Shown one piece after another: positions 3,173 to 9,728 of a stretch of 64,000 nt of DNA. Origin of the DNA: an uncultured Tateyamaria sp. (GTDB lineage Bacteria; Pseudomonadota; Alphaproteobacteria; Rhodobacterales; Rhodobacteraceae). The notes under the pieces were generated by a model. It ran no database searches. It was given only the letters and a program-made list of their open reading frames with translations, and had not been told where the DNA came from. A program made the position numbers and the translations under genes. The stretch is from the NCBI GenBank assembly GCA_947501275.1, contig CANMVD010000002.1:496001-560000 (forward strand), read 5' to 3'. The stretch's first letter is position 1. The number at the start of each line of letters is the position of its first letter.

Positions 3173-3269
3173 TCAGCCCGGTTGACTTGGCCCGGGGATA
3201 GGGCCAAACACCGCAAAACTAACCCGCAACCGGGCGTTCCGTGGGCGCCAAACTGACGAGGATGCCAAT

Positions 3270-5216
3270 ATGGCCCAGATCTCTCTTACCTTTCCCGATG
3301 GCAATGCACGTGAGTACGACGCTGGTATTACGCCTGCTGCTGTCGCCGAAGGCATTTCCAAATCCCTTGGCAAAAAGGCTATCAGCGCAACCGTGAATGG
3401 CGAGCACTGGGATCTGGCCTGGCCGATCGAGGCCAACGCCTCCATCGCGATCCACACTATGGCCGACGAGGACCAGGCCAACGAGCTTGTGCGCCACGAT
3501 CTGGCCCACATCATGGCCCGCGCCGTGCAGGAGATCTGGCCCGACACCAAGGTCACCATCGGCCCCGTCATCAAGGATGGCTGGTATTACGACTTTGACC
3601 GGGTTGAACCCTTCACCCCCGAAGACCTCGGCGCCATCGAGAAAAAGATGCGCGAGATCATCAACAAGCGCGACCCCGTGCGCACCGAAGTCTGGGATCG
3701 CGATGTGGCGATCAAGTATTACGAGGAGCGCGGAGAGCCTTATAAGGTCGAGTTGATTGAAGGCATCCCCGGTGATGAGCCGCTGCGTATGTATTGGCAT
3801 GGTGAGTGGCAGGATCTGTGCCGGGGTCCTCACCTGCAACATACCGGTCAGGTGCCCGGTGATGCGTTCAAGCTGATGTCCATCGCAGGCGCTTACTGGC
3901 GCGGTGACAGTGACCGCGCCATGTTGCAGCGCATCTACGGCGTCGCCTTTACCGGCAAGGAAAAGCTGCGCGCCCACCTCAACATGCTCGAAGAGGCGGC
4001 CAAGCGGGATCACCGCAAACTGGGCCGCGAAATGGATCTGTTCCACATGCAGGAAGAGGCCCCCGGCCAGATCTTCTGGCACCCGAACGGTTGGACCATC
4101 TACACCGAGTTGCAGGACTATATGCGCCGCAAACAGCGCAGCGGCGGCTATGTCGAGGTGAACACCCCGCAGCTTGTAAACCGCAAACTGTGGGAAGAGT
4201 CTGGCCACTGGGACAAGTATCAGGAAAACATGTTCATCGTCGAAGTGGACGAGGATCATGCGCGCGAAAAGGCCGTGAACGCGCTCAAGCCGATGAACTG
4301 CCCCTGCCACGTGCAGATATTCAACCAAGGGCTCAAATCATATCGTGATCTGCCGCTGCGTATGGCCGAGTTTGGATCCTGTGCGCGCTATGAACCTTCA
4401 GGCGCGCTGCACGGGATCATGCGGGTGCGCGGCTTTACCCAGGACGACGGCCACATCTTCTGCCGTGAGGACCAGATCGAAGAAGAAACCGCCGTCTATA
4501 TCGACTACCTCACCAGCGTGTACAAGGACCTCGGATTTGAGAGCTTCCGGGTGAAATTCTCGGACCGTCCGGAGCAGCGGGCTGGCAGCGACGACATCTG
4601 GGACAAAGCCGAAGCCGCCCTGCTGGCCGCCACCCGTGCTGCGGGGATTGAGCCCGAGATGAACCCCGGTGAAGGTGCGTTCTATGGCCCCAAACTGGAA
4701 TTTGTGCTGACCGATGCCATTGGGCGTGACTGGCAATGTGGCACTCATCAGGTAGATTTTGTGCTGCCAGAGCGGTTGGATGCCACCTACATCGGTGCAG
4801 ATGGCGGAAAACACCGCCCCGTCATGCTGCACCGCGCCTGCCTCGGCTCATTCGAACGCTTCATCGGCATTCTGATCGAAGAACATGCAGGCAAGCTGCC
4901 GTTCTGGATCGCACCGCGACAGGTGGTTGTGGCCTCGATCACGTCCGAGGCGGATGACTACGTTGCCGAAGTGGTCGCAGACCTCAAGGCGGCGGGCGTG
5001 CGTGCCGAAGCCGACATGCGCAACGAAAAGATCAACTACAAAGTTCGCGAACACTCCGTCGGCAAGGTGCCTGTCATTCTGGCTGTCGGTGGGCGTGAAG
5101 TTGAAGAACGCACTGTGTCTGTGCGCCGGTTGGGGCAAAAGCAGACCAGCGTGCAAAACCTCGATGAGGTGGTTTCGGAACTGGGTGTTGAAGCCACACC
5201 ACCGGACTTGCGCTAA
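3270..5216 (+). CDS. thrS: threonyl-tRNA synthetase
   Basis: A 648-residue class II synthetase with full domain order. The TGS domain covers about residues 1-62. The editing domain has HDLAH (H76, H80) and CRGPHLQH (C184, H188). The catalytic core has PMNCPCH (C344, expected zinc ligand), motif 2 ([20 protein letters not shown]) and motif 3 ([13 protein letters not shown]). The anticodon-binding domain begins near [10 protein letters not shown]. It charges tRNA-Thr in the cytoplasm and clears mischarged Ser-tRNA-Thr. No T-box or other leader is visible upstream. An imperfect terminator-like stem follows the stop codon. Confidence 0.98.
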
Positions 5217-5652
5217 ACCTACTTAGAACTCGGACAGCCCTGATGAGTCCATCAAGGGGCAGTCCGGGCCCGTTTCATAATGCACATCCGATCTGCGTGT
5301 GGTGTCTTGATCGCACCGCAGTCGATATGCCGCGAACAAATCAACCAACACCAAAGTCCCGGACCTTGGAGGCCTTGGCACAGCGCATGTACCGCAGGTC
5401 TCAAGTGCGCATGACAGCGCCGCTCCGCTTGAAACAGAACAAGACGCTGCGGGTGTCTTTGCCCCCACGATCTGAAACATTCACCAGCAAACCGGTAAAA
5501 AACAGGCATCTGCCCCGTGCCTTTGTTGCAAGTGGCTGACATCTTCTGACAGAGGCGTGAGGAAACGCTTTGGGTGTGGTGCAATGCCAGAGATCCGTCC
5601 TATCTAACCCTCACGACCGAATTGAAACCGATATCCAAAAGGGAAGTTGAAG
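5217..5652. other. intergenic region between thrS and the bufferin operon
   Basis: 436 bases with no convincing gene on either strand; the open frames here lack a start site and protein-like composition. It holds the thrS terminator-like stem (5231-5265) and must carry the promoter of the downstream operon. I looked for a metal-regulator operator (clear dyad) or an ECF-type promoter near 5550-5650 and could not defend one by eye. Confidence 0.6.
5231..5265 (+). terminator. imperfect stem-loop after thrS
   Basis: CGGAC (5231-5235) pairs with GTCCG (5262-5266), and the inner arms GCCCTGATG / CATCAAGGGGC pair with one bulge around a 4-base loop. It sits 15 bases after the thrS stop. Only a weak T-run follows, so the call is tentative. 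Confidence 0.4.
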
Positions 5653-5958
5653 ATGTCGAAGACTATGAAATCCGTAGCCATCGTTAGTGCCGTCGCGGCG
5701 GCCCTGACTGCTCAAACAACAACATCCGCCCAAGCCGCCTCGAAAGAGAAATGCTATGGTGTGTCGCTGGCAGGTGCCAATGACTGCGCCGCTGGACCCG
5801 GCACAACATGCGCAGGCACTTCAACAGTTGATTATCAGGGCAACGCCTGGACGCTGGTTGACGCCGGTACGTGCGCTGAAATCGAACTGCCCGCACTGGC
5901 AGACGGTACGCCACGCACAGGCTCGCTTGAAGAGCTGGACCGCGACCTGCCTGCGTAA
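5653..5958 (+). CDS. bufA: bufferin precursor peptide, DUF2282 family (BufA1 type)
   Basis: A 101-residue precursor. Residues 1-28 form a Sec-type signal peptide (MSKTMKS, hydrophobic core, SAQA cleavage motif before ASKEK). The mature part has four cysteines: C34 (EKCYGV), C45 (ANDCAAG), C53 (TTCAGTS) and C74 (GTCAE), with the DUF2282 pattern around VDYQGNAW. In characterised bufferins (Caulobacter), conserved Cys of such exported precursors are converted to 5-thiooxazoles by an MNIO enzyme with a DUF2063 partner, and the product binds copper in the periplasm. Which Cys are modified here is inference. ATG 5653 has AAGGGAAG about 8 bases upstream. The tail after C74 is acidic and looks disordered. 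Confidence 0.9.
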
Positions 5959-6034
5959 CGCCAAGTAACATGCTATCATGCGCCGGCGTTCCCCCTTTGG
6001 CGGGCGCATGACAAAAACGAACCTGAGGCCTGAC

Positions 6035-6895
6035 ATGCTGGATGCGACACGAACACCGCCCCGCCTTCCTGCAGCCCCCGGCGTTGGCTACAAAGCCCAG
6101 CATTTCAGCGATCTGCGTAACGCACCCGGCCCAGTCAAATGGCTGGAGATCCACGCGGAAAACTACATGGGCGACGGCGGACGCCCCCATGCACAACTGC
6201 GCGCACTTAGGGGTGACTTTGCCATTTCGGTTCACGGCGTAGGCCTGTCCATTGGCGGCACAGGTCCGCTGGACCCGGAGCATCTGGCGCGGCTGAAACA
6301 CCTCATTGACTGGCTGGAACCGGCGAGTTTTTCTGAACATCTGGCGTGGTCGACCCATGGTGCCGAGTTTCTCGATGATCTGCTGCCCCTGCCCTATACC
6401 GACGCGACACTGACCTGTGTTGCCGACCACATTGACGAGGTCCAGGAGACGCTGGGCCGCCAAATGCTGTTGGAAAACCCGTCAAGCTACCTCGCCTTTG
6501 CCCAAAGCACCTGGTCCGAGACAGATTTTCTGACCGAACTTGTCCGCAGGACAGGTTGCGGCCTATTGCTTGACGTAAACAACGTGTTCATCTCGGCCAC
6601 CAATCTCGGTTACACACCGACAGGGTATCTTGATGCCTATCCCACCGCCGCTGTTGGAGAAATTCACGTCGGCGGCCACGACGAAGACCGCGACGAGCAT
6701 GGCGCGCCCCTGTTGATTGACAGCCACGGCGCTGCCACAGCTGACCCCGTCTGGGATTTGCTGGACTACACCCTTGCGCAAACCGGACCCGCCCCTGTGC
6801 TCGTCGAATGGGACAATGACGTGCCCGATTGGGCGACATTGCGCAGCGAAGCAGAGCGTGCCGAACATGCGCTGACATCTGTTCTGGCGAACTGA
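6035..6895 (+). CDS. bufB: multinuclear non-heme iron oxidase, DUF692 (bufferin maturase)
   Basis: A 286-residue DUF692/MNIO protein with a TIM-barrel pattern. Conserved metal-ligand blocks are in the family order: [62 protein letters not shown] and LLIDSHG. MNIO enzymes bind two or three irons and oxidise Cys or Asp side chains of peptide substrates. Here the partner is the bufA product, modified in the cytoplasm before export. I chose ATG 6035 because GAGG lies 6 bases upstream; in-frame ATGs at 6008 and 5978 are possible. It is separated from bufA by 76 bases and from the next gene by 3. Confidence 0.93.
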
Positions 6896-6898
6896 AAC

Positions 6899-7657
6899 AT
6901 GAACAGCCACGAGCACATGTTTCGCGCGGCATTGCTTGACCCCGCCCAAGCTGTTCCGGAGGGGCTGACGGACGGCGCAGGAGCCCCCACAACCAAGCGG
7001 TTTGATGTCTATCGCAACAACGTCACCGTTGCCTTGATCGAGGCGCTACGCACCGCGTTTCCTGTTTTGCGAAAGTTGCTGGGGGACGCGAATTTCGATC
7101 AACTCGCACCGCATTTTGCCCGTGCGCATCCGCCCGCATCTCCGCTGATGATGCACTACGGCGTTGATATGCCAGAATTTCTGGCCGGTTTTACGCCGTT
7201 AAAACATATCGGTTACCTGCCGGATGTTGCACGTCTGGAATTGGCTATCCGGCAAGCCTACCACGCCGCGGACGCCATTCCCTTGAGCGCCACGGATCTG
7301 GCAGAGACAGAACCGGACGCACTGATGGCGGCGTGCCTGAGCTTTGCACCGGCAGTGCAGATCGTTCCCTCACCTTGGCCGTTGTTTGATATCTGGCGCT
7401 ACAACATGCAGGAGGGTGCTGAAAAGCCGCGCAACGTGGCCCAGTCCGTCCTGATCACCCGGCCTGAATTCGACCCTGTTCCCCATCCGCTTACCCCTGC
7501 CCAAGCCACATGGATCAGTGCCATCAAAGCGGGCACACCGCTGTTAGGCGCGCAGGATGCCGCCCTCGCACAAGATCCGAAATTTGACTTGTCGCCCCTG
7601 TTGACGCTGCTGCTGCAGCAAGAGGCGCTGACCACTCTCACCACCCCAAAGGACTGA
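6899..7657 (+). CDS. bufC: DUF2063 family partner protein of the MNIO maturase
   Basis: A 252-residue protein with the DUF2063 N-terminal helical domain (RFDVYRNNVTVALIEALRTAFPVLRKLLGD, split here as RFDVYRNNV and TAFPVLRKLLGD), the motif SPLMMHYGVDMPEFL, and a C-terminal domain ending in helices rich in Leu. In characterised MNIO clusters this family acts as the partner that binds the precursor and is needed for the oxidase reaction. It starts 3 bases after bufB and stops 3 bases before the DoxX gene, so the three are co-transcribed and probably made in fixed ratio. Confidence 0.9.
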   Translation: MNSHEHMFRAALLDPAQAVPEGLTDGAGAPTTKRFDVYRNNVTVALIEALRTAFPVLRKLLGDANFDQLAPHFARAHPPASPLMMHYGVDMPEFLAGFTPLKHIGYLPDVARLELAIRQAYHAADAIPLSATDLAETEPDALMAACLSFAPAVQIVPSPWPLFDIWRYNMQEGAEKPRNVAQSVLITRPEFDPVPHPLTPAQATWISAIKAGTPLLGAQDAALAQDPKFDLSPLLTLLLQQEALTTLTTPKD

Positions 7658-7660
7658 AAC

Positions 7661-8185
7661 ATGACTGCCCTCTCACGTTTGCAAAACATCGTCTTTGATC
7701 CCATGGACCGCGATGACTGGCTGCTGCCAACCATCGCGCGACTGGTCTTTCTCGCTGTGTTTTCAGTCTATTTTTTCAATTCGGCTGGCACCAAAATCGA
7801 AGGCGGCCTGACGTCCCCCTCTGCCGGGGCCTTTGCACAGATTTTCCCGGCCGCTGCCGAGGCTGTGCTTTATGACGTCACCCAACTGACGCAGTTTCAG
7901 CGCATCGTTATCCTGTTGGGAACATTGGCTGAATATGTTTTGCCAGTGCTCATCGTCGTCGGGCTGTTCACCCGGTTCGCAGCCCTTGGCATGATTGGAT
8001 TTGTTGTTGTGCAAACGATCGTTGATGTGACGGGCCACGGTGTGTCGCTGGGTCAATGGTTCAACAACGCACCCGAATTGATCGACCAGCGTTCGCTCTG
8101 GGTGTTCTTGCTGCTGGTGCCGTTCATCAAGGGTGCAGGCCCATTCTCGGTGGATCGCTTTTTCGCATCAAAACGGCTCGACTAA
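7661..8185 (+). CDS. bufD: DoxX family membrane protein of the bufferin operon
   Basis: A 174-residue inner-membrane protein with four predicted helices: TIARLVFLAVFSVYFF, the FQRIVILLGTLAEYVLPVLIVVG region, MIGFVVVQTIVDV, and SLWVFLLLVPFIKGAGPFSVD. The C-terminal GPFSVD(R) phrase and overall size fit DoxX. DoxX-family genes commonly accompany DUF692/DUF2063 clusters, but their role in bufferin biology is not settled; a redox or export-linked role is a guess. It is the last gene of the run, 3 bases after bufC. Confidence 0.88.
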   Translation: MTALSRLQNIVFDPMDRDDWLLPTIARLVFLAVFSVYFFNSAGTKIEGGLTSPSAGAFAQIFPAAAEAVLYDVTQLTQFQRIVILLGTLAEYVLPVLIVVGLFTRFAALGMIGFVVVQTIVDVTGHGVSLGQWFNNAPELIDQRSLWVFLLLVPFIKGAGPFSVDRFFASKRLD

Positions 8186-8284
8186 AGCAGCTGCGAAAAA
8201 GTGTGGAATACAGCTCATCGCCTAACCTGTTGAATTTTTTGACTTTGAGCAACGGCAGGTGGTGCGGGTTCTTCGGAAACCGGT

Positions 8285-8602
8285 TTATGTGACGTTCAGC
8301 GCGGATTGCGTGTCTTTGCTCCAGCCCAGATACATGGACGCGCTATCTACAATCAGCGGACGCTTCATCAAAGTGGGGTGCGCCGCAAGTTGCTGAGCTG
8401 CGGGCAGCGCCCGTGCCGTTTCATCCAGCCCGCGCCATGTGGTGGATCGCGTGTTCACCATCGCAGCACCAAAAGTCGCCAGCGCCGTCTCCATGATGAC
8501 ATTCGGCACACCATCTGCCCGCACGTCGATAAAGGTCGCATCAGGCAGCGCGCGCATGGCCTTGCGGCACGTGTCACATGTTTTCAAACCGTATATTTCC
8601 AT
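8285..8602 (-). CDS. ArsC/Spx-like thioredoxin-fold protein
   Basis: A 105-residue protein of the ArsC/YffB family with the N-terminal motif YGLKTCDTCRKAM (C9 and C12) and a C-terminal block KRPLIVDSAS that matches the cis-Pro region (family KRPV/L). True arsenate reductases use a single N-terminal Cys plus an Arg triad; a CxxC with no ars neighbours argues for a reductase or Spx-like role rather than arsenate resistance. ATG 8602 is preferred over the one two codons upstream because GAGGA lies 6 bases before it. It converges on the bufferin operon. Confidence 0.75.
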   Translation of the reverse strand: MEIYGLKTCDTCRKAMRALPDATFIDVRADGVPNVIMETALATFGAAMVNTRSTTWRGLDETARALPAAQQLAAHPTLMKRPLIVDSASMYLGWSKDTQSALNVT

Positions 8603-8640
8603 GGCCATTCCTCACATTTGCGTTGAAATAAGCAACTTTG

Positions 8641-8774
8641 GCAGGTGATTGCACCACCTGCGTCTTGATTTTCTGTGCACGTGCGCAATTTCATTAGATG
8701 CGCGGGCCTTTCTGTCGGCGCGGTGAAGATCCCCGCTTGCGGGGCAGACGACAAGGCAAAAGGAGGCACGGACC
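8641..8774 (+). promoter_or_regulatory. long leader of the cold-shock gene with two stem-loops
   Basis: GCAGGTG (8641-8647) pairs with CACCTGC (8655-8661), and CCCCGC (8731-8736) pairs with GCGGGG (8739-8744). The second stem is about 30 bases before the start codon, followed by AAAGGAGG, a strong ribosome binding site. Long structured leaders are typical of cold-shock genes, whose mRNA is controlled by temperature; that this one responds to cold is inference. Confidence 0.4.
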
Positions 8775-8981
8775 ATGCCAACTGGCACCGTGAAGTGGTT
8801 CAACACCACAAAAGGCTACGGATTTATCGCCCCCGATGAGGGCGGTAAGGATGTTTTTGTCCATATTTCGGCTGTTGAGCGATCAGGTTTGACGGGCTTG
8901 GCCGACAACCAAAAAGTCAGTTTCGAGTTATCCGAAGGTCGAGACGGGCGTCAGATGGCGGGCGATCTGTCCCTACTCTGA
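8775..8981 (+). CDS. cold-shock domain protein (CspA family)
   Basis: A 68-residue single cold-shock domain. RNP1 is KGYGFIAP and RNP2 is VFVHISAV, preceded by GTVKWFN, so all single-strand nucleic-acid contact strands are present. It binds single-stranded RNA or DNA and probably melts mRNA structure. A strong AAAGGAGG precedes ATG 8775. No neighbours in operon. The length and lack of extensions are those of small CspA-like proteins. Confidence 0.95.
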   Translation: MPTGTVKWFNTTKGYGFIAPDEGGKDVFVHISAVERSGLTGLADNQKVSFELSEGRDGRQMAGDLSLL

Positions 8982-9030
8982 GAAACACAGGTGGCGCGCG
9001 GTTTTTGAACCTGCGCGCCACGCACTGAGC

Positions 9031-9324
9031 CTAGTCGAAAGTGCAGCCCTTTGTGCCGACCGGGCAATCCGCACGCTTGGCGACGCGGTGCACATGCCGT
9101 TTCTTGGAAACGGGGTGCGACAATGCCTGAGCATAGCTGATGTCTTGGTTTGGCACACCACAGCAGGTTGTCCCATTAATGGTGATGGGTTGCAGACCCG
9201 TGGGGCAGTAGTTGGCCGTGTGATAGGCATAGATCTTGGGGCCGGTAGCCTGTTGCGCCAAAAGCGCGCCCGATCCAAGCACGGACAGGACAGCAGTGGC
9301 GGCGACTGTTTGAATAAAACGCAT
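9031..9324 (-). CDS. small Cys-rich secreted hypothetical protein
   Basis: A 97-residue protein with a clear signal peptide (MRFIQTVAATAVLSVLGSGA, cleavage near LLAQ-QATG). The mature part has five cysteines: YCPTG, an adjacent pair in TTCCG, and DCPVGTKGC near the C-terminus, with a basic His/Arg stretch (KKRHVHRVAKR) between them. GGGAAG lies a few bases before ATG 9324. I do not recognise the family. Disulfide or metal binding is plausible from composition alone. It lies 0.85 kb from the bufferin operon but on the other strand, so a link is speculative. Confidence 0.65.
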   Translation of the reverse strand: MRFIQTVAATAVLSVLGSGALLAQQATGPKIYAYHTANYCPTGLQPITINGTTCCGVPNQDISYAQALSHPVSKKRHVHRVAKRADCPVGTKGCTFD

Positions 9325-9491
9325 ATCTTCCCTCGTTCGGTAAACGTACCACGATATGTGGGCAGACTGCCGGGGATATGGGCGCAAGTCCAGAATTTTC
9401 CTCAACATCGGCTTTCGCACGGATGATTTACCTTCAATTGTCATAATTGTGTCTAGGCTAGAGACAGTATCGCCGCAAAACCGGAGGTCTT

Positions 9492-9728
9492 ATGTCGGAA
9501 TTGATGCGCCTTCTGAGCCTGTTTTACGCCTGTGATGTCTCGGCAGAGACGGAATTCCCATCGCCCCAGCAATGGGTCGCATGTATGGGGCACTATCACG
9601 CAATCAAAGCCCATTTTGCCGAGGACCTGTCTGGCCCGACCGCTCAGATCGTTGGCTATCAGCGCTGGAAAGACTGGGAAGCCGAAAACGCAGCATTGGT
9701 GGCACAACTGCGCAATCGCGTGCGCTAG
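9492..9728 (+). CDS. small hypothetical cytoplasmic protein
   Basis: A 78-residue protein (start MSELMRLLSLFYACDVSAE) with a near-perfect GGAGG about 7 bases before ATG 9492, which supports real translation. It contains PSPQQWVACMGHYHAIKAHF, then a helical C-terminus with coiled-coil character (WKDWEAENAALVAQLRNRV). No signal peptide or membrane segment. I do not recognise the family. It stands alone between a secreted protein on the other strand and a SnoaL-like gene. Confidence 0.6.
   Translation: MSELMRLLSLFYACDVSAETEFPSPQQWVACMGHYHAIKAHFAEDLSGPTAQIVGYQRWKDWEAENAALVAQLRNRVR

Follow-up and report, generated by a model that had tools for sequence, protein, structure and literature searches.

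The locus lies in a window of 64,000 nucleotides from an uncultured Tateyamaria sp., the whole stretch of DNA that was analysed, where four genes in the same direction fill positions 5653 to 8185 with gaps of 76, 3 and 3 bases, all of which agree with the coordinates of the preliminary description. The first gene, bufA (5653-5958, + strand), encodes a Buf1 (DUF2282) precursor of 101 residues (Pfam PF10048, 85.9 bits against a cut-off of 22.4). It is followed by bufB (6035-6895, +) for an MNIO (DUF692) maturase of 286 residues (NCBIfam NF050167, MNIO_BufB, 362.3 against 310; Pfam MbnB_TglH_ChrH, 338.4 against 25), bufC (6899-7657, +) for a DUF2063 partner protein (PF09836, 86.6 against 27.2) and, as the last gene, one for a DoxX membrane protein (7661-8185, +; PF07681, 28.6 against 23.6). 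With all four products above the curated Pfam cut-offs, the bufferin assignment first made from the letters is supported by curated models and by synteny, and judged by sequence the operon is a Buf1 bufferin member, new but ordinary in its lineage. The bufB product falls below the NCBIfam cut-offs of HvfB (225 against 360), ApyH, MbnB and ChrH, the bufC product below that of HvfC (38.3 against 142) and the DoxX protein below that of HvfX (24.8 against 80); these HvfB, HvfC and HvfX scores, together with the DUF2282 precursor, rule out the HvfABC oxazolin family for this operon. Relatives of the bufB product with solved structures (3BWW, 8HCI and 7DZ9) were found with phmmer.

As mechanically called, the MNIO open reading frame opens earlier, at 5978 or 6008. 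Given that the tblastn matches of most genus relatives begin at residue 7-10 of the 295-residue form and that one homologue begins MLDD..., the start at 6035 that had been preferred at the outset is the better one. The organism's own genome holds one MNIO and one DUF2282 gene, both within this operon. The DoxX protein of the window shows 79.5% identity to its counterpart in one congener (G014, locus L044) and 49-58% to the counterparts in the remaining 17 genus relatives, a bias that the MNIO does not share, and DoxX alleles may have been exchanged within the genus.

The cysteines of the precursor are at residues 34, 45, 53 and 74, as originally placed. They are conserved without exception across the 115 aligned sequences (those of the 117 precursors that start with M), as are G36, G41, N43, G50, T51, D60, N64, V69 and G72. 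By eye, the N-terminus has a signal-peptide-like stretch ending in ...SAQA. At the other end, positions 5917-5955 encode a conserved C-terminal tail, R-x-GSLexLdRDLPA, which lies outside the Pfam match; the RDLP/RDIP form of this tail is present in 109 of 117 precursors and is possibly a recognition element. For Buf1 peptides, parts of PMC12452194 describe the two central cysteines alone as modified and the first and last as joined in a disulfide, and by analogy the same arrangement would apply to the precursor of the window. An AlphaFold2 model of the precursor was weak (mean pLDDT 62.9) and was set aside as structural evidence, being too uncertain. Analysis A1 used 40 of the 81 precursors listed as distinct (that of the window and 80 others). 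At two loci, L055 and L169, tandem bufferin precursor genes stand ahead of a single MNIO gene.

Both MNIO and DUF2282 were found in 19 of 20 Tateyamaria genomes, the own genome included, with one (G019) lacking both, and across 61 relatives, again with the own genome counted, MNIO was found in 43 and DUF2282 in 42. The four genes are ordered on one strand in the own genome (1/1), in the first copies of all 18 genus relatives and in 78 of the 80 named relatives; both exceptions lie at contig starts. The named loci and the genomes searched overlap (L095 and G001 are one instance), an overlap that the similarity filter handles for the motif only. This ordering in 18/18 genus and 78/80 named relatives means that the four-gene set is not a chance assembly. 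The order was also present in 15 of 22 further loci, and the misses there are second MNIO loci with no precursor nearby (L049, L050, L066 and L067) or loci with no detected DoxX (L054, L064 and L070). The second MNIO genes, in G017, G018, G014 and G015, are 25-43% identical to that of the window, no DUF2282 gene was found adjoining them, and they possibly belong to other MNIO pathways.

We then consider how the operon is controlled. Bufferins of Caulobacter are controlled by the sigma factor SigF together with the anti-sigma factor NrsF. The SigF promoter of Caulobacter is given in part of PMC3511200 as GTAACC-N16-CGAA, and passages of PMC12452194 place sigma factor and NrsF genes in Buf1 clusters. 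A match to NrsF was used here as the marker of a SigF-NrsF system in a genome. NrsF was not found in the own genome, which is 99.98% complete, by a search that detected the Caulobacter control, nor in the 19 other genomes of the genus. It is present in 7 of the 61 relatives, six of which carry the bufferin operon (G025, G029, G035, G040, G046 and G055), the seventh (G050) having neither MNIO nor DUF2282. Upstream of the precursor gene in five of these six, GTAACn-N16-CGAA starts at a distance of 63-108 bases, and in the sixth a GTAACC-N15-CGTA can be made out by eye. By comparison, GTAAC-N15-18-CGAA occurs within 300 bases upstream in none of 36 NrsF-lacking genomes (G047 was left out of the comparison, no precursor having been found in its stretch), although a GGAAC variant stands at -196 in one of them (G026), and the L055_0 region shows GGAAC...CGAA at -196. 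In this search, which covered 300 bases ahead of each of 117 precursors, eight named loci (L110, L111, L116, L122, L129, L141, L159 and L170) have GTAAC...CGAA 226-281 bases upstream, far from the usual SigF-type position, with no NrsF found in the sequence around them; we treated these occurrences as chance. In the window itself, GTAACC-N16-CGAA with up to two mismatches has no match at 3252-6065, and G[TG]AAC-N15-18-CGAA has none within 300 bases ahead of bufA. With no such promoter match upstream and no NrsF found, a SigF promoter is ruled out for this operon.

What the lineage has instead is a strongly conserved block, about 100 bases upstream of the precursor gene within the genus. A 47-base pattern of this block, allowing up to three mismatches, gave a single match in 14 of the 20 genus genomes and no control matches; it missed six genus genomes, the own genome included. 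Expectation-maximisation recovered the same block across many genera. For this, 117 upstream regions were reduced to 111 by removing four SigF-type regions, L055_0 and the short L119_0, and then to 86 by removing near-identical ones. The motif reached a log-likelihood of 1156.5 in the 86 regions against 126.2-154.3 in five dinucleotide-shuffled sets, controls that leave shared ancestry in the statistics. With the cut-off set at the 99.9th percentile of the scores from 1720 shuffled sequences (6.96; shuffled maximum, 15.7), 75 of the 86 regions passed, 51 of them scoring at least 20. In these 75 the core TgACG-N4-cGTGA-NN-CACgg-N3-cGTGA is followed, after some 25 bases, by a -10-like TA, and their full consensus is cTnACa-N4-cTgACG-N4-cGTGA-NN-CACgg-N-ctcGTGA-N-Tgg. 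Measured from the core (last CGTG), a TA comes 24-27 bases later in 67 of the 75 sites, as opposed to 11 of 75 at control offsets of 10-13, the -10-like element fits TAnnnT in 49, and a TTGACA-like hexamer (up to one mismatch) follows just after the core in only three.

None of the six operons examined in genomes with NrsF has the motif; there, the four SigF-type regions score between -5.3 and -2.2 and the two other regions -11.5 and -8.2; the SigF-type and motif-type classes do not overlap in the sample examined. L184, which comes from a different family, has a score of 11.3. Of the 11 regions among the 86 that are missing the motif, seven (L060, L061, L063, L065, L068, L069 and L070) belong to neither promoter class, as do L186 and L187. 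The layout of the site suggests an activator bound beside RNA polymerase, and a putative trans-acting activator is the best reading. The literature that we searched, with queries that did not include the motif itself, showed no report of such a site.

The window has its own copy of this putative activator site upstream of bufA (5536-5583, +), located by motif discovery with shuffle controls, and its best-scoring 28-base core is at 5547-5574 (TGACAGAGGCGTGAGGAAACGCTTTGGG). It keeps the upstream TGACA and the first CGTGA, but the second CGTGA has been lost relative to its relatives. The -10-like element, TATCTA, follows 26 bases after the core (5601-5606, +) and fits TAnnnA rather than TAnnnT, and a scan of 4500-9500 with the sigma-70 consensus returned one site only, on the - strand. 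At 12.5 the site scores above the shuffled 99.9th percentile but below the best shuffled sequence (15.7), and because this is low against a set in which 51 of 86 regions reach at least 20, the strain may control the operon weakly or in an altered manner. Two congeners (L044 in G014 and L036 in G006) score below the cut, and the other 12 genus relatives in the set score at least 13.9.

The same block could be read as an ECF-type promoter, with CGTGAnT as its -35 and CTA as its -10, that serves some ECF sigma factor distinct from SigF and involves no activator. The near-fixed distance from the last CGTGA to the -10-like TA, much like that of an ECF -35, speaks for such a promoter, as does the lack of an apparent sigma-70 -35. 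Further half-sites upstream are nevertheless conserved that an ECF promoter would not need, the TAnnnT found in most sites fits a sigma-70 -10, and the putative -35 is lost both in the window and in L044, so we regard this reading as rather unlikely.

Transcription from thrS, with no dedicated control of the operon, is a far less probable explanation. In 76 of the 80 named loci thrS does precede the operon on the same strand, and folding of two stretches of the window ahead of the operon gave no significant hairpin (z of 0.60 and -0.17). Set against this are the gap of 436 bases (5217-5652), which holds the conserved promoter-like block, and a strong hairpin after thrS (z of -3.51) in L031, the one relative that was folded, which the window is without. 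Our preferred reading remains a promoter of the operon's own, assisted by a putative activator.

The preliminary description had found no metal-sensing regulator nearby and had concluded that control comes from elsewhere. A Pfam scan of eight neighboring window proteins between 29 and 10215 likewise found no such regulator. The conclusion can now be sharpened, in that NrsF was not found in the genome, no SigF promoter was found upstream and the lineage has a different conserved site. Clustering of the open reading frames in the loci returned thrS, an ArsC-like gene and others, with no recurring regulator beside the operon. A regulon search of 34 genomes with a 29-base pattern, allowing up to three mismatches, returned 223 matches, compared with 140 when the pattern was reversed as a control. 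The surplus includes the bufferin sites themselves, often counted on both strands, and no clear second site or regulator stood out among the matches listed, although a few genuine further sites may have escaped notice. A CueR-type operator pattern had no match at 3968-9324, and such an operator was rejected for the operon.

Several neighboring genes deserve mention in their own right. An ArsR-like HTH protein with, by eye, a START-type C-terminus is encoded upstream of thrS in the same orientation at 20 loci; the window opens inside an AHSA1-domain gene (29-610) that is its probable counterpart. Convergent with the operon is an ArsC/Spx-like gene (8285-8608, -) that is kept beside it in 44 clustered loci and passes the Pfam ArsC cut-off but not those of NCBIfam, one of the latter being that of the Spx-type RNA-polymerase-binding regulators. 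Farther on (9031-9444, -), a small cysteine-containing protein, whose N-terminus looks signal-like by eye, has relatives in 13 clustered loci and has no Pfam or NCBIfam match.

Overall, we consider it very probable that this is a Buf1-type bufferin operon that sequesters copper and is transcribed from a non-SigF promoter with a putative activator. In the cytoplasm, the MNIO and its DUF2063 partner would modify the ribosomal precursor, the central Cys-45 and Cys-53 being oxidized to 5-thiooxazoles. The modified peptide would be exported by Sec, held by a Cys-34 to Cys-74 disulfide, and would bind excess copper in the periplasm, while DoxX, in the inner membrane, may have some protective role alongside it. 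The four genes are presumably co-transcribed, and not via SigF-NrsF; their promoter would have a sigma-70-like -10 element and no recognizable -35, and the putative trans-acting activator would bind the TSAC(G)/CGTGA half-sites just upstream of it, the promoter-proximal half-site of which appears eroded in this genome.

Modification and copper buffering by this organism's own operon are extrapolated from its relatives. Parts of PMC12452194 describe bufferins as sequestering periplasmic copper through thiooxazoles, and parts of PMC13097082 report that DUF2282 products bind copper in an ordered manner and that 5-thiooxazoles absorb at about 305 nm. In passages of PMC8224329, the Caulobacter cluster homologous to the operon and SigF are both copper-induced under the conditions tested, and the sigF mutant grows poorly with copper. 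The pathway might instead serve mainly against other stress in this marine lineage, be it oxidative or from gold, silver or mercury. In Legionella, the GIG operon reacts to both gold and copper, according to part of PMC5413113, and control of the present operon differs from SigF control; yet copper has a severe effect on the sigF mutant of Caulobacter, while the mutant's sensitivity to chromate and cadmium is described as similar (PMC8224329, in part). The own genome furthermore encodes elsewhere a CopA-like copper P-type ATPase directly followed by a CueR gene (L175, G000:C1:1794365), which says nothing direct about the operon, and CopB was not found in it. We judge a main role against such other stress to be improbable and retain copper sequestration as the probable function.

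The operon is one more member of a large family, and its control site matters more. Evenly poised, in our estimation, is the further proposal that in Roseobacteraceae the SigF-NrsF switch was replaced by a new activator acting on tandem TSACG/CGTGA half-sites over the -35 region, perhaps with the operon as its sole target. If so, bufferin operons would combine a fixed core of four genes with a control module that can be replaced, the regulator would be a new metal sensor, probably for copper, and its site would already be decaying in the lineage of the window. The site offers a handle on how bufferin peptides are switched in marine alphaproteobacteria that lack SigF-NrsF, and a DNA bait for the regulator.

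The GIG cluster of Cupriavidus is linked to RpoQ. The GIG operon of Cupriavidus metallidurans is mentioned in a passage of PMC8224329 as a related metal-induced set, and that of Legionella pneumophila comprises related metal-induced DoxX, DUF2063, DUF692 and DUF2282-type genes, for which, unlike the control proposed here, an influence of RpoS is reported (PMC5413113, in part). The oxazolin, or EGKCG captophorin, systems (HvfABC) are described in part of PMC13097082 as likewise pairing an MNIO with a DUF2063 partner and a cysteine-containing precursor to give a 5-thiooxazole product, but their precursor consists of EGKCG repeats, whereas that of the window is a DUF2282 protein. The closest parallel in gene order is CC3254-CC3257 of Caulobacter vibrioides (CCNA_03363-03366), with the same succession of DUF2282, DUF692, DUF2063 and DoxX in the relevant parts of PMC3511200 and PMC8224329. 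There, the SigF and NrsF genes stand beside the operon with a GTAACC-N16-CGAA promoter, whereas in the window neither an NrsF match nor such a promoter was found.
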